A DNA stretch of 11,210 bases, taken from NCBI GenBank assembly GCA_003557485.1, contig PWOI01000101.1, positions 1-11,210 on the forward strand. The letters are read 5' to 3'. Origin of the DNA: Elusimicrobiota bacterium (lineage in GTDB: Bacteria > CG03 > SLGR01 > PWQF01). Made by a program: the position numbers and the translations under genes. Position 1 is the first letter of the stretch. Each line of letters opens with the position of its first letter. Of this stretch, positions 1 to 11,210 are shown one piece after another. The notes beneath the pieces are model-generated. The model ran no database searches. It saw only the letters and a list, made by a program, of their open reading frames with translations, and was not told the origin of the DNA.

Positions 1-228
1 CTCCGGCGACCCAGCAGGCACCAAGTGGTGACGATATGAGAACCGGAATTGCCGGGCTTGACTGGGGACTTAACCCCGGCGGAACCGTACCTGATACCTG
101 GACCAGCAGCCCCACTCCGGCGACCCAGCAGGCACCAAGTGGTGACGATATGAGAACCGGAATTGCCGGGCTTGACTGGGGACTTAACCCCGGCGGAACC
201 GTACCTGATACCTGGGCCAGAGACATAA
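1..228 (+). repeat. 114-bp in-frame tandem repeat, two copies visible
   Basis: Bases 1-101 and 115-215 are identical over all 101 positions; the 13-base junctions (102-114 and 216-228) differ. The period of 114 bp equals 38 codons, so the frame is kept. The unit encodes a Pro/Thr/Gln linker (PATQQAPSGDD) followed by a Gly/Asp/Trp-rich block (MRTGIAGLDWGLNPGG, then TVPDTW). After copy 2 the sequence departs into unique protein. Because the window opens inside copy 1, the array probably continues upstream. Identity at silent positions points to recent duplication or gene conversion rather than protein-level selection alone. It could also be partly collapsed or expanded by assembly. Confidence 0.95.
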
Positions 229-3200
229 CTGATATTCGGGATAATCCAAATGTTCCAGATAATGCATATGTATTGTCGGATTCTGATAGTATATATAACA
301 ACCAGCTGGATCTTATGGCAATGTCGGGAAATCTGGGCAGGCCGGCAGTCTGGACCAGCGAAGCATCTTCGACAGAAAACAGCTGGGATACGCGATACAG
401 TGAGCCCGCGCCGAGCGATAGAACTGATTTTACGCATTTTAATCAAAATGACCCTGTTATAAACGTCCGGTATCCAGAAGGAACGACAAACAGATATTTC
501 CCGGATGGCTCTGAGATTGAAACCGGTTCTGCCGGGGACGTAAATTACGAACGTTATACAGATCCCAGAGGGCTCACAGAGATAAATGCTACCGGCAGCC
601 CTGACACCAGAAGAGATAATCAGGCTGGAGACCTGCTTAGTGCCGCGTATGATGCCGATCTGCCGCTTAGAGAGATGGAAATCGATGCCTCAGGAAGAGA
701 TGCTGAGCTTGTTTTTACAGAAGATAATTTTGAAACACGCATAAGCCCAACCGAAACCAATATAAAATCTCCGGTAGATTCGGGGGAATGGTGCACAATG
801 ACAGGAGAACCTTCTACCGGCATTGTGGTTGATCCGGATAGAAGTATGAAAGTAAACTATGATCAAATGGATAGAGATCCAATGTCCAAATATATTTCAG
901 AACTTTTGGATAACGGGCCTTCAGCCGGGTTGTGGGAGTTGCAGGAGAGCCAGAATTACCGGAGTCATGAAGAAACCATAGGCCTCAGAACCACAAGATC
1001 GGAAGTTCTGGGTTACGGAACGACCGATAACGGTGACACCGTATGTATAACTCAGGATACTACACGAGTTGGTGATAGAGTCCTTGATCCTACGGTAACA
1101 GTACAGGATTTCAGTAGGTCCGAAGATACCGGGAGAGCGGTTCCCGGTCAGGAAAGGGTTTTCTCAACCAGTGAAGCCGAAGGTGTTGTAAATTATTCAG
1201 TTCCTGATTCTATAGATGCCGATTTTACGCTTAATAACAGAGAGATTGACGGACTTGAATCTGTTTCACACTATACTCCGAATCCCGATGCTGAGGGCCG
1301 GTACATTAAGGAGACACTCTATACGGATGACCGTGGTGTTTTTGAAAGGTATCAGGTTTCCGACGCATCGCCTTCATTGGATGATTATTTTGACTCCGCT
1401 CGCACTGAGTTCTACCTTTTTTATAACGAAGGCGCGGACGGGATGCCCGTGGCTGTGGAACCGGTTGAAGGTGAAGGGGGCGGTAAAACTCCGGAAGATA
1501 TCGCGGCGATTGTAGCGCTTTCCAATAATATAATAGACCGGGTTGACACCAGGCTTCAGGAGGATACGGCAGAAGGCGGGGTAGTTACTGATTTTGACAA
1601 AGGCTCCCGGTATCTTACAACAGACCACGTGGTTGATTATATTACATCCAATTATAACCCGCATAATCCATTGGAACAGTCAGTCGAATGGTTTGACCGC
1701 GAAACCGGAAAGACCCGTAAGAGCACTCACGTTGAATTCGGGGATCTGACCAACCTTGGCGGAACTTATCTCCTGAGTGACAATAGCGATTATAATAGCA
1801 TAAATGCGGTGGGGTCTGTTGACGGTAATGAACTTGCGGTGATGAAGAATGTAACTTACGATGATCGCTTGGATATCAGAGGCGAATATACCGGGCACGG
1901 CGGTGATTGGGAAGTCAGGCTCAGCGGCGGTATAGAAGATGGACATATTTTCGTAGCAGACGGGAAAGTAGATTTTAAAGACGGGTTTAATGATTTTACA
2001 CTTATGGGCACGGGTGATTCTACCGAGATATCAGCTATAATCCTTGCCAGCGGAGACAGTTTAGGTGGCCCGGATGCGGATTTAGGTACGCTAGATCTGT
2101 CTAATCTTTCAGATGTTACATCCCTCTCGGATGTACAGAACCTTAAAAGCGGGGCTTTGGATGCCGAAATTAACCTCAATGGAGATAATCAGACTTTTTC
2201 CCGCTTTTTAGATAACGGGATCCATTTAACAGGCACAGCAAGGATTATGGATCCTGACAACCCGTTTACATCAAGCGTAGAGATAAAAGATAACTCACTG
2301 ACAGTCTTAAATCCTTACGGGAAATTCGGCCACACCTTACAGGCAATCGGCAGTTTTGATATAGGCACCTTAGGGGAATCGCTTGTAATAAAACATGCGT
2401 CAAACGCCGGAAATGATGACCTTACTTTTGGTGACCTGAGGGATTCCGATTACAGTTTTTACCGCAATGAAAGAGGAGAAATTCCGGCGACAGCCAGTTG
2501 GAAAAACGGAGATGTCTACGAATCAATAGGCGGCACCTTCGCGAGCGAGGAAGATTTTATACAGGGTGATATGATGGGGTTGAACGGGGGGCGCCTGAAT
2601 GACTTTAAGTCTGCCAGAACTGAGGATGAGAAACATGTATTGGTATGCGAGAATACTGGTGGGGTTACAAATGTTACGGGAGATGTAACCCGCAATATAG
2701 TAATAGACCGGAACCAGTTTCTGGGTGATCTCCGCAGCGGGAAAATACAGGATCTTAACAACCTTCTTGACTGGGATAGCTATGAAAGAAGTCATACCGG
2801 AGACGGGGTTATGACTGTTGATAGGGAAAACGGCACCTATACAATTACCCAAATCACGTACGAGATTGATGGCAATAACGCGGTTACCGGACTCGATAAA
2901 ATGAGCACCTATTTTGACGGTGAAAACTATAGGTTAATTAATAATCCTGATATGATTTGGAACGAAAACACAAGTGGTCATATGGTAGAGGGCGGTGGTT
3001 TATACGACAGCGAATCATATCTGGGTCGCGAATTTATACCGGCAATGGTTCTTGAGACTGATGCCTCCTGGGCAATAGATTCCGAAAATGTGATTTTAGT
3101 CTTGGGAGAAGATGCTAACGATGCTTACAATAACACGTATCTTGGTGAGCTTCCGGGGACGCTTGAATATTCTATCAGTGGTGGCAGCCTGGTGGGCGAG

Positions 3201-6200
3201 CAGATCAGCGCGAGTCGCGAAGTACCTGTAATCAGCGGGATTGAGCGCAGTGGAGGGCAGGTATCTGCAATTATTGAAGGTACTGATACTATTGAGGGAA
3301 CACTTGAGGGACGGGTGACCTGGGATCTTACCAGCCATACAGCAGGTGGTGAAACCAGGTATGGAGTAGAAGTTTCAAATGTTCGAAATTATGACGAGAA
3401 CATAGTTAGCAGAAAAGGTCTCACCCTCAGAACCGAGACGTATGATTATTTGCCTGTTGAATTCAAGAGAAACGGTGAAACACAAACTATAATTTTTACT
3501 ACAGACAGAGACATCACGGGTATGGGGGGAGAGGAGATGCCTGGTGGGGTAACGATGTTCTCAATAATCGATTTTTCGGTAGCAAACGAATTCACTACAT
3601 CAGGCACAATGGATAACGCCGTCGCTACCGGAGGAAGGCCCGCAACCGAACAGGAAATAGAATTAATGCTGCGTATGCTGCAGCCCGAAGACAGCGTTGT
3701 CCTTGAGGCTTATTTGCACGGACAGGATTATGTGGAAGCAACTGCTAGAGATCTTGCCTTCGCCCATTCGCAATATGCAGTAGGCAGTAATTTTGAAGGA
3801 TTATCTGCTTTATCTGAGTATATGCAAAAATCCGAGAGCCTTTACCAGGAAGCAAGAGAACTTGGTATTTCTGAAGATTTAATTTCTTCGTCTATGGATG
3901 CGGGCAGGGCCCTTGATAGTACTATTCTGGGTATGAGACTTCACCAGCTTCCGAGCGCGCGCCAGTACAGGGAGAGCGAGTTTGCGGAATGGGCTGGACG
4001 GCTTGACTCAAGGATCGCCTCAGGGGATATTTCGCTCCATACACCTGTTGCCATTAGTTCACGCGAGTTTGTTTACACCACCCAGGATATTGTAATAGAT
4101 GCTCTTGTTGTGGCATCTACGCTTTGTATGCTTCCCGCCGGAGCTTTCGGTGCGGCCGGCTCCTTGGCGGCGCGCGGAGTCGCCGCGGCGGCGCGCGGCG
4201 TCGCCACGGCGGGGCGCAGCATTGCTGCAGTGGGGCGCACCGTCGCCACGGCGACCCGCCTCACCTCGGCGGCGACACGCGTCGCTACGGTGGGGCGCGG
4301 TGTCGCCACGTGGGCGCGCGGCGTCGCCACGGCAGCAAGATCATTAGGCTTTGTAAAACAAGCATCAGGATTTGTAGCAAATGCGGTAGGCAAGGCAGGT
4401 CAGATAACAAATGGGATAAGTAAAGGGCTAGGTACAGCAAGGACAGCGATTGTAGGCAAGGCAGGTCAGATAACAAATGGGATAAATAAAGGGCTGGGGG
4501 CAGCAAGGACAGCCATAGCAGCAAATCCACGCCTAAATACTTTGAGAAGCGTCGGGCTAAACTCATCCCTTTATTCAGCCCAATGGGTGGGCACCAGGGT
4601 ATACAACGCGGCCAGAGGGCTGGGACAGGTTGGAAGACTTGTGGGTAGCGGAGCTTCCCAGTTTGTGAAAGGATTGGGAAGAGTCAGAGATGGGCTTCAG
4701 ATACTTTCCAGGCATCACGTAGCAGCGCATCAGGCACTTCCGCAAAGCGCCCACTGGGCTCAAACACTTGTAAGCAGCGTACTTACAAATTTAAGTTCAA
4801 TGGGCAGTGTGGCTGTATTTGCAAAGACCGGAAGATCGGCTTTGGAAGCCATAAGTCCGCACGTTTCTGATGAGTATGCCCAAACTATAGGCACTATTCA
4901 TAATTTCCTTGGGATGTTGCCTTTTATGTTTGGAGGTCTTCCGTCTCCTGCAGGTAAAGTTGCCGCCAAGTCAATTTTTCAGGTTGGAAATCTTTCCCCC
5001 GGCCTGGTTGCCGGAACGGTATTCTCAGCCGGTGCGCTCACCGGAGCGGGTATAGCCTATAATGCAGGAGCTGATTCTGTAGGTCAATACTTAGGATACG
5101 GGCTTGCGGGAGGTATTGCCGCTCTCGGGTTGGCAGCGCTTGGCATAGCTGCGTTTACTGGAACCGGCGCTCAGGGAGTGACCCTGACAACCGCCGGAAA
5201 GATTTCCAAGGCTGTGGGGGGAGCCTCCGGAGCGCTCGCGGCGGGGGCTGCCAGCTGGCACTACAGTGACGAGGGAAGAAACTGGACAGATGTTTATACG
5301 GACCCCGTTGGAACCATTTTTACTCCGGAATTTGCCGTAGCCGCTGTTGTAGGGGGCGCTCTGGGAGCTTCACTCTTCGGCGCTGGCGGAGCTCAGATCG
5401 TATCTACAATTAGAAGCTCTGGAGGAGTGGCCAGATCAGCAGGTTTCTTTACGGGAGGTTTTGCTGCGGGGTTCGGGGCAAGTCATTATATTTACGGCAA
5501 TAGCCTGTCGGAATCACTCGGGTGGGGTCTTCTGACCGGTATCGGTGGGGTGGGATTATCAATTGCTCCAGGTGGATTAGGCGGTTTTCTGGCTCAGCTG
5601 CCCACCAGCACGCTCAGGACTGTAAGAAGCGTAACCGCGTTCAGGATGGGATCTTCAGCGGTCCTGGGAACGCTGGATTACTTGGGAGTCCGTTTTCCTT
5701 CTAATCCTGTGGAAATTTTCGGGCATCCCACTTTCGGGTTTGGTTCCATAGAAGGTGAGGGTGGACACGAACAGAAGGCGGCTTTCTTCTTCGGTATTCA
5801 GCTGCCGTACCAGAGCGACGGTAGTCTCGGAGACCGCATGGCGCATTCTGTCCAGATGGGGCAGGATACCTTAATGCATCCCTCGTTATGGATATTCTCT
5901 ACCGCTGTCGGAGCGGTCAGGCCCCTTCTTCAGCCTTTAGTTCAGAATATGGTCGGACTCGGCAGGATCAATCAGGGGTTTAAGAGTAGAACTTTTGTGC
6001 CAAGCAACAGCGCTCTTGCCAGAATACCGAACTATTTTTACGAAGTGGGACTCCAGGAATTCGGTCCGCAGCTTGCTTTTGGCGCTGGCCTGGGGCTGGG
6101 AGCCGGGCAGGCAGGCGGGCTGGCGCAGCAGTGGGTTGAGCTTCTTAGAGAAACGTACGGCCGCGGCCGGGGTATAGGGGCGAATTTAATGGTGCAGGCA

Positions 6201-9200
6201 ACTACATTAGCCACCAACCCCTCTTTAGTTAATTTCCATAACTCTCAGGGATTTAACCTTAATGCGGCTAATAATTTATATGAACATTCCAATGTAAATC
6301 CGTCAATAGATCTTAACGCTCTAAATCAGCTTAACAATCCTGGAGTCGCTTCACGATTTGTTGAAATTGATATCGCGGCCCAATTGTCTGGAAGAAATTC
6401 GCAGGAGAGTCAGAACCTGGCTCTTGACCTGCTGGGATTAGAAGCGGTTGGCGCCCAGGATCAGGTTACCTTACGGGACAGCGCTGCGCAAAACCCGGTT
6501 TCGGAAGCTTTAAGAAAAGCTTCTCCTGATACGGTAGTTAATTATGCTTTCGGTGTGTCGGCGGTTGAAAATGCTATATCAAGAAGCAGAAATCTGGATC
6601 AGGAGTCCCAGCAGGAACTTAGAAGAAGCATAAGAAATCCCGCCCAGCAGACAGATACGGAAAGAAGAACACAGCCGATGATAGAGACCCTGGCTTCTGA
6701 AATGGGCGCTACAAGTGAAGACACCCCGGGCTTTAATTCTTCGGAGGTCCTGGGGCAGTACATTATAGGCGCTTCCAAGCTTGCGGGAGATGGCGTTCAG
6801 GTCGCGGAGATTAATAATAATGTTGATAGTATGATTACAGCGCTATCCCATCAGCTTTCCCGGCCGGGTATGGATCTTGAAAGTGAAGCAGAAGCAGGCC
6901 TTATTGATAATCTAATTATTATTAGTGAAGCGGTATCAAAATCAGAAAACGCCGAATTGAAAGAGCAATTCTATACTTCCTTCTTTACCGATGCCGGAGG
7001 GTTTGTTAATAATCTTTTATCCCTTCTTAATAAACAGATAACTGCAAGCAGTCGGGACAGGGAGGATGCTGCGGCGCAGTACGAACTTACAAGGACTGCT
7101 GTCCTGATTAACCAGTTAATGACTGAGATGGGCTCACTGACTCCTGAGGCTCTTGTAAAACTTATAAATAACCAGGCGGTAGATCAAAGCTACAGGGAAG
7201 CGGCAAGGTCTTTTCTGTTTAATAAAATGGATGCTGCCCAGAAGCAGGAGCTTATACAGGGCGTTCTTAAGAATGAATCTGTCGAAGTTGGTGTCGGTGA
7301 AAGCGAAATAAAGATTGACGCTGGTATGTTTACTGAAATCAGCATAGCAGATGCGCTGGTAGAGTTGGATAATACTCAACTAAGAGGGGTTGAAACAGAG
7401 ACCAAAAGTTTTAAGGATTCCTCAAATAACATAATTTACGAATACCTTATAAAATCAGGTGTCCTGGAGATGGGGGGCGAAAGAATAGAACTTGCCGGAA
7501 CAACCTTACATGAAAATTTACACGCTGTTCTTCAGTCATTTATGGAAGAAGGAAACACCAAGCTCGATAAAGCCGGCCGCAGTAAATTACAGACACGTAT
7601 TGAAAATGTACATAAACTCGCTTCGCAGCTAAGATCGCCTCCTGCGGTATTTAAGGTTCTGGAAAAACAGAATGCACTGTCTGAAAAAATGGGTGTAACC
7701 TCAGAATATTACCACATAGATGGTGTACAAAGCATTTCGTCTGAACAGTACGATGAGTTAGCCAAAGCTAACAATCCGGAGAGAGCGAAGTACTACCAGA
7801 AGTTTGTAGCCCAGACCCTTGATGCTTCGGCTGAGCAGAAACTGTATGATTTAGGGATAGAGAACCCTGCCGCGGAGCTTCAGAAGCTTGTAGAGCAAAT
7901 GAATGATATAGTCTCGACGGTTCTAAACGAGCTTGGACATGGTCTCCGGACAGAAGAGCACGATAAAGCCGACCAAGTGCATTTTATACAGCGTATGCTT
8001 AAGACTGACGCTATGCACGAACTCCGCACTGGCGCTGGAAAAACTATGGTGCTGACACCTATCTTTATGCTCTATCTGGCGGTTAACGGTATAAACGCGG
8101 CGGCGGTATTCCCCAATTCAAGCAGGGCTGATGAGGCCTTCAAAGAGCTGTATAATGAAGGGGGAGTTTTTAATAATGCCGTAAAAGCTCTTTCTAATAA
8201 CGAGAAGTACCGGCATATAGAGAATCTCAAGGTTTTGAACCTTACAGGGGATAGCTTAGCATTTTATGAAAAGCAGCTTACAGATACGGGTAATATAGAG
8301 GGTCCTGACGGGACTAAATACAACAGCCTGGCGGAATTGATAGAAGCGCACGGCGTAGTGCTTACAACTTTAGGCGCTTCAAATTCCATAAAAATGAAAT
8401 ATGATGACGGAGAAAAAGCGCCCTGGAATGCTCTTGTAAGAACAAGGTATGTCCTTCAGGATGAGGCTCACGCAATGCCGGATTCCCCGCATCTTATAGT
8501 CGGCTCAAGCACTTCGAAACTTCAGCAGATTGACGCTGTTGCCTATGAGGCAAGCCAGAAGGTTGCCAGGTTTTTTATGAACTCCGGCGTAAAATACTTA
8601 CTTGAACAGCAGAACTCAAGTGAGCTTGTTGAGTTTATGAGGAGTGAGTTTGACAAAGGCGGGGTTGTTTATGACGGGGAGCGGGTAGCAGAGAACTTTA
8701 ATGATTTTATGACTAATTCTGAATACGAAGCGGCTCGCGGCAGGTTATATGATAAAGCCATGGCCAGTGATTCTCTTATGGAAAACTGGAATGCAAAGTC
8801 TGAAGATCTTATGAAGAGTTACTCTAAATCTATGGGGTATGACTACGGCGAATTTATGGAACCTGACGGCCGGTATGACAGCGAGCGGGAAGCTATAAAT
8901 GCCTGGCACGAGTCTTTTAATACAGTTGACGGAATGCAGTGGGGGTATGATGCGGATTCCAACAGGGTGGCCCCGATGTCGGAGGATAAGATCGCCTTGG
9001 ATATGAGGTTCGGAAACCCGTATCTTGCCGCCGCCTACCAGTTTGCGGGCTACATTTTTGCAAACTATACATTGAACTCTAAGGGTGAAATAGTCTCAAA
9101 AACTGATACAGAAAAAACTCCCGTTACAGATGAACAAATAATGATAGAGTTTATCGCCGAACGTTCCTTTATGACAGAGGCCGAGGAAGCCCTCCGGAAA

Positions 9201-11210
9201 GAATTTAATGAACTTAAGGAAGGAAAAGAATTTCCGGACGGTCGCAGATGGGAAAAAATCTTTCCGGACAATCTTAAATACGAGGATTATGTGAAATCAG
9301 AACTGGGGCGTTCTGCACTGGATTGGAAATTTAACGAACTGAAGGAAAGGCCCGGAAGTATGCAGAATGCCAAAGATGAAATATCCAAGAAATTTGATGC
9401 TGATATTGATAGCCTTATAAATCAGTTTGTTAACGACCAGCTTGATATAGTTGAGACGAATCCTGACAGTAAGCGCGTGACATCACTGACCCTTGCCGCC
9501 GAGGCAGCCGGGTCTACCTATATAAGCGCAACCCTTGGACCTGTTTCGGAGTATTTTCAGATAGCCTTGGGGATGAGCTCTTATAACCTTGCCAATCCTT
9601 TTATGGGGTATGTGGCGCAGAATGCAAAACTTGAAAGCGGAAACCTTGGAACCGGCGCCCGCTCCGAACAGATAAAAAGCGTAAATTTTGCTGCACAGGG
9701 CGACGCTGTAGAATCGGTTAGGAACCTTGGAGTTCAAATAGAGAATATAACCGAAGGAAGCGAAAAACATCTTGTGCTCTTGGGCGTCTCAGCCCGGATA
9801 GGAAACCAGGATTACCAAAATCTGGCTGAAAATCTTGGAACAGAGAAGAAAAATAATTTTAACTACATTTTTATTCTTGAAGGTAACTCAGCAAGAATAC
9901 TTGACCAAAAAGGGAATGAAGTTGATGCGAGTAAACTGGGGTGGGAGAATGATGCAGGTCAGGCTATAACATCTGCTGCGGAGGCGGTTAAATACTCTCT
10001 GAAGCAGGATCCCGGTGAAATGAAGAATCTCGTGTTTGTTGACAGAGGAAATAAAGAGGGTATGGATCTCTTCCTTAGGAAAAATGAAGAGACCGGGCAG
10101 CAAGAAAAGGACGCGCAGTTTGTTTCGGTATTTGATTCAAAAACTACCGCAACTATGGCGGACCAGACGCTTGGAAGGGACCGGGGTGAAAATGAAAAAC
10201 ACATTATATTTCTTGGGGCCGATTCTGAATTTTCCCGGGTAATAGAAGCTTTGGCTCAAAACAAAGTGGGAGAGGCAGTAGTAGAGGCCGCTAATATATT
10301 TGAGGCTGCTGAACAGAAAGGCCTTCAGGAGAGACGCGTAAAGGTTATTAATGACGTTTTGCATGAACTTTTGACATACCAGATGCGAACTATGGCTGCT
10401 GCGGAGCATACGCCCGAGGCCCGTCAAGCTCTTGAAGACGCCAGGAAGAATTTTCAGAGTATGGCTAAGTATCCCGGGGCTCCGCATAAAGGAAGCAGAC
10501 ATACTGCAGAAGAGGCTCTCAGAAGTCATCTTCAGCGCGAGGTATCAAATTTCATCGAGACGCTTGAAGCGGTTTATTCAAAAATCAGCGCGGCAAACCA
10601 GGAAGTTGTTGATATGTATAAAGAGGCCAAAGCTGCCGGAGAGTTCGAACTTAAGTTTGAAGGTATGGGGCATCAGCACAAGGAACAGGCTTCGGATAGT
10701 ATATGGGACGTATCAAAACTGGGGTTGATGAATAAGAACTTTTTTGAGGCAGTTTCAATTGTAAGCAGGCATTTTTCTTCAGAAGACCTTAACTTTGAGG
10801 TAGAGGGCAGACGAACTGAACATTACAAGCCGGCTGCTTATCTCAATTATGACTCCAATCAGGGGTTTACTGCCTCCGTTGATAGGAATACCGCTGAAGC
10901 TAATCTGGAGCAGCAGAAAGAAGCGGCGCTGAATAAGGCTTATTCTAAAGCCAGCGGTATAAATAAACTCGCCGTAAATATTTCAAAAGCTCTGGGGCGT
11001 ACTGATGTTAATGATAAAGTAGAAAACCAGGTAAGAGAAAATTTTGTATCGGATCTTGCTGGAAAATTGACTTCTATGGCAAACAGGGTGCTGGCAGAAG
11101 ATTCTTCAGTAGTAAATAAAGATCAGTTTGCTGTAAGGGTCCCCGAAAATATGAAAGATGATTTACTGAGTTCTTCCAAGCTGGCAGAAACCCTGGAAAA
11201 GGTCGGCCAG
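3..11210 (+). CDS. Internal fragment of a giant multidomain protein with a SecA-like ATPase module (partial at both ends)
   Basis: Reading codon by codon from base 3 gives 3736 sense codons without a stop, ending exactly at the last base; the other two + frames hit stops within the first 40 bases. Neither the true start nor the stop is in the window. In order, the protein shows a 38-residue tandem repeat (1-71), a long acidic beta-rich region (72-1214), a helical linker (1215-1366), an Ala/Gly-rich membrane-like region with Arg-heptad and 22-residue repeats (1367-2050), a polar helical region with a HENLH motif (2050-2640), a SecA-like two-lobe motor (about 2648-3480) and a helical tail. Only four Cys are present (264, 348, 882, 1375). 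SecA itself is about 800-900 residues, so here the motor is one module of a far larger chain. Function is unknown; a giant cell-envelope protein with its own ATPase is the best inference. The open frame is certain, the role is not. Confidence 0.96.
216..3644 (+). other. Acidic, beta-rich surface-protein-like region (residues 72-1214)
   Basis: About 1140 residues dominated by Asp, Gly, Asn, Thr, Ser and Val, with many short alternating strand-like stretches ended by DG, NG or GG turns (for example GDWEVRLSGG, DGHIFVADGKVDF, NGTYTITQITYEIDG). This composition is typical of large secreted or surface-exposed bacterial proteins. Near residues 155-195 the text (YPEGTTNRYFPDGSEI, then YTDPRGL) loosely resembles the hairpins of YD/RHS repeats, but there is no regular repeat register. 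A short helical interlude at about 498-520 (TPEDIAAIVALSNNIIDRV) breaks the pattern. Three of the four cysteines of the fragment (264, 348, 882) are here. I recognise no named domain; a beta-solenoid or stacked beta-sandwich structure is inference. Confidence 0.55.
3645..4100 (+). other. Helical linker (residues 1215-1366)
   Basis: At residue 1215 the composition switches sharply from beta-type to helix-type: Glu, Gln, Leu, Ala and Arg rich, with stretches such as EQEIELMLRMLQPED and SEYMQKSESLYQEARELG. It connects the acidic N-terminal region to the first hydrophobic segment. No known domain is recognised. The abrupt change suggests a real domain boundary rather than gradual drift. Confidence 0.5.
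4101..4172 (+). other. Hydrophobic segment, possible first membrane helix (residues 1367-1390)
   Basis: The stretch beginning ALVVASTLCMLPAGAFGAAG is about 24 residues without charge and holds the last Cys of the fragment (C1375). It is followed immediately by the arginine-heptad tract, so a hydrophobic helix would be flanked by strong positive charge on its C-terminal side, as the positive-inside rule expects for a cytosolic flank. This is suggestive, not proven; it could equally be a buried soluble helix. Confidence 0.45.
4173..4340 (+). repeat. GC-rich 21-bp coding repeat giving Arg every seventh residue
   Basis: Arginine codons fall at 4173, 4194, 4215, 4236, 4257, 4278, 4296, 4317 and 4338: exact 21-bp steps except one of 18 bp (4278 to 4296). 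The protein unit is roughly R-G-V-A-T-A-A (variants RSIAAVG, RTVATAT). GC is 47/60 in each of 4201-4260 and 4261-4320, clearly above the AT-richer flanks, and eight of the nine Arg are CGC, whereas AGA and AGG are common elsewhere. Units resemble one another at the DNA level (recurring gtcgccacggcg), so the tract probably grew by repeat expansion. Many units contain the short inverted repeat cgcc-ac-ggcg. As a helix, one face would be a line of arginines on an Ala/Val body. Confidence 0.93.
4386..4517 (+). repeat. 66-bp in-frame tandem repeat (22 residues, two copies)
   Basis: Copy 1 (4386-4451) and copy 2 (4452-4517) match at 60 of 66 bases. The unit begins VGKAGQITNGI and ends AARTAI or TARTAI. 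Four of the six differences are synonymous or conservative, so the duplication is older than the 114-bp repeat. A 22-residue period equals six turns of an 11/3 helix, as in amphipathic surface-binding helices of the apolipoprotein type. Cationic Gly/Ala-rich text with similar Arg/Lys spacing continues to about residue 1562 (R1532, R1538, R1545, K1556, R1560, R1562). Confidence 0.9.
4887..6125 (+). other. Glycine/alanine-rich membrane-like region with several hydrophobic segments (residues 1629-2041)
   Basis: Uncharged or nearly uncharged hydrophobic segments are seen at residues 1629-1646 (IGTIHNFLGMLPFMFGGL), 1668-1686 (LVAGTVFSAGALTGAGIAY), 1700-1718 (GLAGGIAALGLAALGIAAF), 1777-1797 (FAVAAVVGGALGASLFGAGG), 1812-1832 (SAGFFTGGFAAGFGASHYI), 1838-1865 and 2024-2041 (LAFGAGLGLGAGQAGGLA), with a weaker one near 1960-1973. 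The small-residue spacing (GxxxG, GxxxA) is that of tightly packed transmembrane helices or glycine zippers, as also found in some pore-forming proteins. The loops carry mixed charge. The exact number of true membrane spans cannot be set by eye, and no transporter family is recognised. Confidence 0.6.
6150..7940 (+). other. Polar helical region of unknown function (residues 2050-2646)
   Basis: Gln, Asn, Ser, Glu and Leu rich text with helix-like stretches (QQELRRSIRNPAQQTDTERR, SEAVSKSENAELKEQFY, KQELIQGVLKNES). Near its start it is unusually Asn-rich (GFNLNAANNLYEHSN, then IDLNALNQLNNPG). The HENLH motif at 2503-2507 is inside it. The part just before the ATPase (about 2620-2650, LQKLVEQMNDIVSTVLNELG) sits where SecA has the helix leading into its first motor lobe. 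No other domain is recognised. Confidence 0.45.
7509..7523 (+). other. HExxH motif, possible metallopeptidase site (H2503-E2504-N-L-H2507)
   Basis: The protein reads GTTLHENLHAVLQSFMEEGN. HExxH preceded by a hydrophobic helix start is the zinc-binding signature of many metallopeptidases. The metzincin extension (HExxHxxGxxH) is absent. A gluzincin-type third ligand, a Glu some 20 or more residues downstream, could be supplied by the glutamate in RIENV, but this is not verifiable by eye. HExxH occurs by chance in a chain this long, so a protease domain is only a possibility. Confidence 0.3.
7944..8510 (+). other. SecA-like DEAD motor, first nucleotide-binding lobe (residues about 2648-2836)
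   Basis: The Walker A text HELRTGAGKT (R2675 to T2681, catalytic Lys K2680) matches the SecA form AEM[RK]TGEGKT. Q2658 lies 22 residues before that Lys, close to the spacing of the Q-motif glutamine in E. coli SecA. A hydrophobic helix (TPIFMLYLAVNG) and strand (AAAVFPN) follow, as in SecA. VVLTTLGASNS stands where SecA has ITYGTNNE. Walker B is YVLQDEAHAMPDSP (D2820, E2821), then HLIVGSS, paralleling SecA's ALVDEVDSI...TPLIISG. The Walker B is DEAH rather than SecA's DEVD. The succession of motifs, not one motif alone, supports the assignment. Expected role: ATP binding and hydrolysis. Confidence 0.82.
8511..9482 (+). other. Expanded region in place of the SecA preprotein cross-linking domain (residues about 2837-3160)
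   Basis: SecA inserts its preprotein-binding domain between Walker B and motif III, with about 180 residues separating the two; here the gap from D2820 to S3175 is about 355. The text is helical and charged, with many Met, Tyr and acidic residues. WGYDADSNRV followed by APMSEDKI (from residue 2980) resembles the strand pair in SecA that reads YxVDEKxRxVxLTEEGI, hinting that part of the domain is retained. The remainder (about 3000-3160) is Glu/Lys/Phe-rich and unassigned. If it binds polypeptides as in SecA, its substrate is unknown. Confidence 0.5.
9483..10298 (+). other. SecA-like second motor lobe, with motif VI apparently lost (residues about 3161-3432)
   Basis: SLTLAAEAAG then YISATLGPVSEYFQIALGM (S3175, A3176, T3177) parallels SecA's MTLATIT...GMTGTAxTExEEF, i.e. 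motif III. ITSAAEAVKYSLKQDPGEMK followed by NLVFVDRG (3343-3349) and a helix matches the SecA motif IV region (AVxEEIxxxHxxGQPVLVGT). TATMADQTLGRDRG (3382-3395) stands about 40 residues on, where SecA has motif V (IATNMAGRGTD), followed by KHIIFLGADSEFSRVI, like SecA's LHIIGTERHESRRI. Where SecA has motif VI (QLRGRxGRQG) this protein has AQNKVGEA (about 3418-3425), without the arginines that sense ATP. Either the finger is elsewhere or this lobe is degenerate. Confidence 0.68.
10299..10440 (+). other. Possible start of a SecA-like helical scaffold (residues about 3433-3480)
   Basis: IFEAAEQKGLQERRVKVIND followed by VLHELLTYQMRTM aligns by eye with the SecA long helix that begins after motor lobe 2 (AQKKVExRNFDIRKxLLEYDDV). 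The match is in helix pattern and a few residues (AxxK, R, L-E-Y-type positions) only. If right, the SecA resemblance runs from the Q-motif through to the scaffold helix, i.e. the whole motor core is present. Confidence 0.45.
10441..11210 (+). other. C-terminal helical stretch of unknown function (residues about 3480-3736)
   Basis: Helix-rich, charged text with a His-rich patch (GMGHQHKEQ, near 3557) and several amphipathic stretches (FIETLEAVYSKISAANQEVV, NLEQQKEAALNKAYSKA). I see no zinc-binding CxC...CH tail such as many SecA proteins carry; there are no cysteines at all after residue 1375. The frame continues past the window, so the function and the end of this region cannot be judged. 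Confidence 0.45.

Follow-up and report, generated by a model that had tools for sequence, protein, structure and literature searches.

A putative SF2 ATPase motor built into a giant protein of an Elusimicrobiota bacterium

ATP motors of the SF2/SecA kind are normally separate soluble proteins, and a contig from an Elusimicrobiota bacterium raises the question of what such a motor might be doing inside a giant protein. A first-pass annotation had described a SecA-type motor embedded in a giant chain. Our reading is that the region from about aa 2640 to aa 3430 is probably a two-lobe, helicase-fold, ATP-driven SF2 motor within a protein of more than 3736 residues. The answer matters for the function of giant proteins in bacteria and for the membrane side at which they act: since a motor needs ATP, an embedded one is informative about membrane side. 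No description of a SecA or SF2 motor in a bacterial giant protein was found in a search of published papers, few of them behind a subscription.

The giant frame and its motor module

The window, that is, the whole stretch of DNA analysed, is the complete contig G000:C53 (11,210 nt), from a genome bin of 2.07 Mb in 212 contigs, 86.6% complete and with 1.1% contamination. Frame +3 is open throughout, for 3736 codons, and contains neither a start nor a stop (Table 1). So many stop-free codons rule out a chance open frame, and mis-binning is unlikely given three related giant contigs in the bin and a codon usage that correlates at 0.80-0.83 with the genome's other genes. Because the contig starts in a 114-nt tandem repeat and ends in 121 nt in common with a second contig, C72, both typical assembly breaks, the real gene probably extends beyond the contig on both sides. 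In-frame tandem repeats open all three giant-gene contigs, with units of 114 nt (window 1-220), 96 nt (C72, or L006, 1-192) and 75 nt (the start of C20, or L012), and probably broke the assembly there. The shared end (window 11090-11210, C72 10584-10704) is identical over its 121 nt, against saturated synonymous sites elsewhere between the paralogues, which suggests that the downstream segment was recently copied or converted.

Table 1. Features of the window (nucleotide positions) and frames of the order that carry a shared C-terminal domain.
Feature	Position	Strand	Basis or remark
Giant protein-coding frame, middle part	3..11210	+	3736 codons, running off both contig edges
114-nt repeat, two in-frame copies at contig edge	1..220	+	probably a longer array at which the assembly broke
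N-terminal part, aa 1-1300, lysine-poor, Asn/Ser/Thr/Gly-rich	3..3902	+	no Pfam family above cut-off
Hydrophobic stretch, aa 1362-1383	4086..4151	+	Kyte-Doolittle
Gly/Ala-rich conserved module, aa 1560-2482, with invariant NYFYEVGLQEFGPQ	4680..7448	+	common to giant frames on C72 and C20
Hydrophobic stretch, aa 1697-1723	5091..5171	+	hydropathy
Hydrophobic stretch, aa 1776-1797	5328..5393	+	hydropathy
Putative SF2 ATPase module, aa about 2640-3430	7920..10292	+	Pfam, profile comparison, lobe-1 model, conservation
Conserved Gln at Q-motif position, aa 2658	7974..7976	+	invariant in C72
Motif I / Walker A, ELRTGAGKT, aa 2673-2681	8019..8045	+	sole block closest to SecA
Motif II, DEAH, aa 2820	8460..8471	+	motif text, ordered-motif test
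Long II-III insert; GYDADSNRVAPMS conserved in it at about aa 2980-2993	8472..9521	+	comparison with C72
Motif III, SAT, aa 3175	9525..9533	+	motif text, ordered-motif test
Motif-V-like VDRGNKEGMDL, aa 3346	10038..10070	+	invariant in C72
Motif-VI-like QTLGRDR (within DQTLGRDRG, aa 3387-3395)	10164..10184	+	conserved in C72
Last 121 nt, identical to C72 contig end	11090..11210	+	assembly fork into shared downstream sequence
Frames with shared C-terminal domain			L038, L124, L123, L118, L121, L126, L127, L128, L129, L130, L122, L131

The SF2 motifs Q, I, Ia/Ib, II, III, V and VI are found in order, the last two being recognised from their text and conservation alone. The motif text that the first-pass annotation had named, in SecA order, all lies in frame where it had placed it, and a QTLGRDR resembling motif VI is present as well. 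Contig C72 of this genome carries a paralogue, 46% identical in the motor, within a frame open across all 10,704 nt. The paralogue keeps every motif at the same place. Synonymous sites are saturated between the two and amino acids are conserved, which indicates that the motif text is under selection and did not arise by chance. Between the window and C72, dN is 0.43 for lobe 1, 0.46 for the insert and 0.55 for lobe 2; it rises to 0.73 for the upstream module and 0.67 for the sequence downstream. Of the stretches compared, the motor is the most tightly constrained. This pattern makes it improbable that the SF2 fold is a catalytically idle spacer with a purely structural role in a giant surface protein: the lobes are under tighter constraint than the sequence beside them, and both paralogues retain the Walker A Lys, the DEAH and the Arg of motif VI. 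On the other side, many conventional enzyme domains have gathered in the giants of this order, so that a domain may persist in them without its original role.

Nearly all structure matches to the model of the first lobe are SF2 helicases. The AlphaFold model of lobe 1 (aa 2640-2880), built without any helicase in the alignment, reached a pLDDT of 57.6 and a pTM of 0.57, with low confidence at Walker A and DEAH. The matches listed by VIA-align for this model are all SF2 proteins (LGP2, MDA5, RIG-I, Hel308, Brr2, Mfd, Dicer, DDX41 and SecA); SecA 3dl8 (Z 7.0, rmsd 4.1, 144 aligned) stands level with the others, at a Z within the range of 7-8 that is also seen for common arrangements. In Foldseek, no match to the lobe-1 model reached an E-value of 0.001. 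A model of the whole motor from a two-row alignment had a pLDDT of 38.8, and for the second lobe the evidence is the motif text; the Foldseek list obtained from this model was discarded as meaningless.

Relationship to SecA and to DinG/XPD helicases

Most SF2 helicases have about 30 residues between motifs II and III. Here the window has 354 residues, C72 has 315 and C20 has 451, and the families known to have an insert at this place are SecA (the PPXD) and XPD/DinG (the arch). The insert is the best structural argument for a SecA-like motor, yet it fits SecA and XPD/DinG alike.

Pfam DEAD matches the window at E 0.0038 and C72 at 5.5e-5, and ResIII matches C72 at 0.0083, all under the Pfam curated cut-offs. 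SecA_DEAD (PF07517) has no match at E<=1 in the window, C72 or C20, SecA_PP_bind (PF01043) gives no profile match between motifs II and III, though an insert is present there, and the Pfam search found no match to SecA_SW (PF07516, wing and scaffold). The profile search proposed for SecA or the DEAD family has therefore turned up the latter, below cut-off, and none of the SecA families. With a profile of 41 SecA sequences the window scores 2.2 bits, below the non-SecA helicases RecG (16.5) and RhlE (4.6) of E. coli.

The resemblance to SecA is concentrated at motif I, whose text has SecA as its nearest match (blastp against 41 SecAs, E 0.003), and the conserved Gln at aa 2658 lies 22 residues ahead of the Walker Lys, compared with 21 in E. 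coli SecA. The SecA profile signal is limited to aa 2660-2702 around motif I, whereas that of DinG/XPD lies at Ib-II, and for motifs Ib, II and III the higher scores are those against DinG/XPD helicases. SecA's DE(V/A)D at motif II and (M)AGRGTDI at motif V are absent; DEAH and DRGNKEGMDL stand in their places. A profile of the paralogue pair scored 61.2 against DinG, with shuffled-column controls at 17.9+-3.3, and 44.7 against SecA, with controls at 19.8+-3.1. When motif blocks had to occur in order, DinG blocks I and II were in place at 4/4 block lengths, joined by Ib at the two shorter lengths and by III at the two longer (p no higher than 0.002 at each setting), whereas only motif I was in place for SecA, with p ranging from 0.001 to 1.0 by block length.

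These comparisons bear on two narrower readings. The motor could be a strongly diverged SecA that moves polypeptide, its II-III insert being a remodelled preprotein cross-linking domain (PPXD). The nearness of motif I to SecA, the position of the insert in SecA's place, a SecA-like SGTA and GGRGMDL at the equivalent place in C20, a real SecA in a related giant frame (G003:C226, below) and a conserved DADSNRVAPMS that recalls, by eye only, the SecA D-x-x-T-G-R-V-M-P-G would fit this descent. We consider it rather unlikely, however, in view of the missing SecA_DEAD, PP_bind and SW matches, a SecA profile that ranks non-SecA helicases higher, the lack of any SecA block in place beyond motif I, and a DEAH and SAT that are atypical for SecA. 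The window motor is thus not demonstrably SecA, and of the original description it is the SF2 ATPase built into a giant chain that is supported, by Pfam DEAD, the lobe-1 model and conservation, and not the SecA type.

A DinG/XPD-type helicase module acting on DNA or RNA, with the insert as an arch-like domain, seems to us about equally doubtful. The deep DinG profile matches with a probability of 90.6 over Ib-II, the DinG blocks occur in order, and the text after SAT resembles that of DinG in the profile alignment. DinG was, however, the only SF2 family compared in such depth, so its match may be a generic SF2 signal and is no proof of DinG kinship. We therefore place the motor in SF2 and in no particular family within it. 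Pairwise blastp against DinG gave no significant match; Helicase_C_2 (PF13307) has no match in the window, its only match in the same genome being a separate 667-aa frame at C156; and the motor contains no cysteines, hence no FeS cluster as in XPD. In overall likeness, the window motor shares SF2 motif order, a long II-III insert, motif I text and Q spacing with SecA, which is otherwise a separate protein with its own Pfam domains; with DinG/XPD (Rad3) it shares DEAH, SAT, the insert and its best profile match, but neither pairwise sequence similarity nor Helicase_C_2, and it lies inside a giant chain.

Relatives were confined to the window's own genome: none were found elsewhere among genome contigs (queried separately by motor and by upstream module), viral contigs, 97 related genomes, the 16 genomes of the phylum, or phages and plasmids. 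The PDB gave no match by single-sequence or profile search, and NCBIfam, PHROGs and PADLOC no meaningful match. Within the genome, three giant paralogues carry motor motifs 627-666 residues after NYFYEVGLQEFGPQ. The third, C20, is a 4035-codon frame with a stop, whose upstream module matches the window at E 5.6e-101. Its motor has a differing SF2-like set, TAQGKT followed by DELD, SGTA, GGRGMDL and QAEGRLD, and no profile alignment with the window motor was obtained. The distance from NYFYEVGLQEFGPQ to the motor is 643 residues in C20 against 666 and 627 in the window and C72; this shared position argues for a common origin, which sequence itself cannot show. Downstream of the C20 motor, aa about 3542-3632 match the Drt5 reverse-transcriptase defence model weakly (E 0.0011), probably by chance, and the end of C20 recurs on C34.

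Giant chains of the order and possible roles of an embedded motor

In this order a nearly complete SecA does lie within a giant chain, and the window motor is a different one. In G003:C226 (L038, 1-18000), a single 6000-codon frame that ends in a stop matches SecA_DEAD (6.5e-75), P-loop_SecA (8.1e-36), SecA_PP_bind (1.8e-23) and SecA_SW (4.2e-8), and it also carries glucoamylase-like and GH130-like domains and several hydrophobic stretches. The embedded SecA is about 32-38% identical to canonical SecAs. Both this chain and the window's belong to the same order and hold an ATP-driven SF2 motor, but the motor of G003:C226 is a bona fide SecA and the remaining chain is dissimilar. The idea of a covalently embedded SecA is thus borne out in a related genome and not in the window. 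As had been recommended, we looked for a normal secA elsewhere in the window's genome, and one is present; G003 likewise has a separate one (L022). A SecA search across 386 genomes returned, among the matches listed, only the strongest canonical SecAs, and is silent on giants elsewhere.

The topology that we propose derives from a jump in lysine content near aa 2400 (from 1-3% before this position to 6-9% after it) and from the hydrophobic stretches between aa 1362 and aa 1797, which agree with the earlier observation of membrane-like regions far from the motor, at roughly 1000 residues or more upstream. The Gly/Ala-rich module with its hydrophobic stretches would sit in or on the membrane, the lysine-poor N-terminal part would face outward, and the motor would lie on the ATP side, in the cytosol or in the cytosol of a target cell. 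Tethered to the giant chain, the motor would pull a polymer, for which the DEAH and SAT text makes nucleic acid somewhat likelier than polypeptide. More broadly, giant membrane-associated chains of this lineage might carry their own polymer-pulling motors, a SecA in one and a diverged SF2 motor in others, which would thread a partner polymer, or a segment of the chain itself, through a membrane belonging to the cell or to a target cell; we regard this as a long shot, and a motor that pushes its own chain across a membrane as conjecture. Besides SecA, giant chains contain several other conventional domains, and this makes a weaker case for the view that a motor there must export its own chain. 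Other giant frames combine pyruvate kinase and cation efflux domains (L121), PPDK_N and methyltransferase domains (L120), or adenylate kinase and a DNA gyrase C-terminal domain (L125), and one has an MraZ domain (L126). SF2 motors, and a neighbour's nearly complete SecA, therefore occur inside giants that also hold ordinary metabolic enzymes.

Comparable chains are known from other uncultured lineages. Passages of two reports describe frames of great length in Omnitrophota and related PVC lineages that have hydrophobic segments and few recognisable domains, as in the window, and do not mention an embedded SF2/SecA motor (PMC10066038, PMC12057145). Effectors of Amoebophilus carry SecA-like, helicase-related domains (PMC3482391); they resemble the window, by description only, in having a SecA-like domain fused into other proteins, and differ in being the host-directed proteins of an amoeba symbiont.

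The C-terminal domain of G003:C226, about 300 aa long (aa 5691-6000), ends many long frames in G003, in G005 and in the window's genome (C169, 5315 aa, and C9), and is possibly a sorting or anchoring signal. It often finishes in a tail such as ILYAN, ILYAK or VLYAS.
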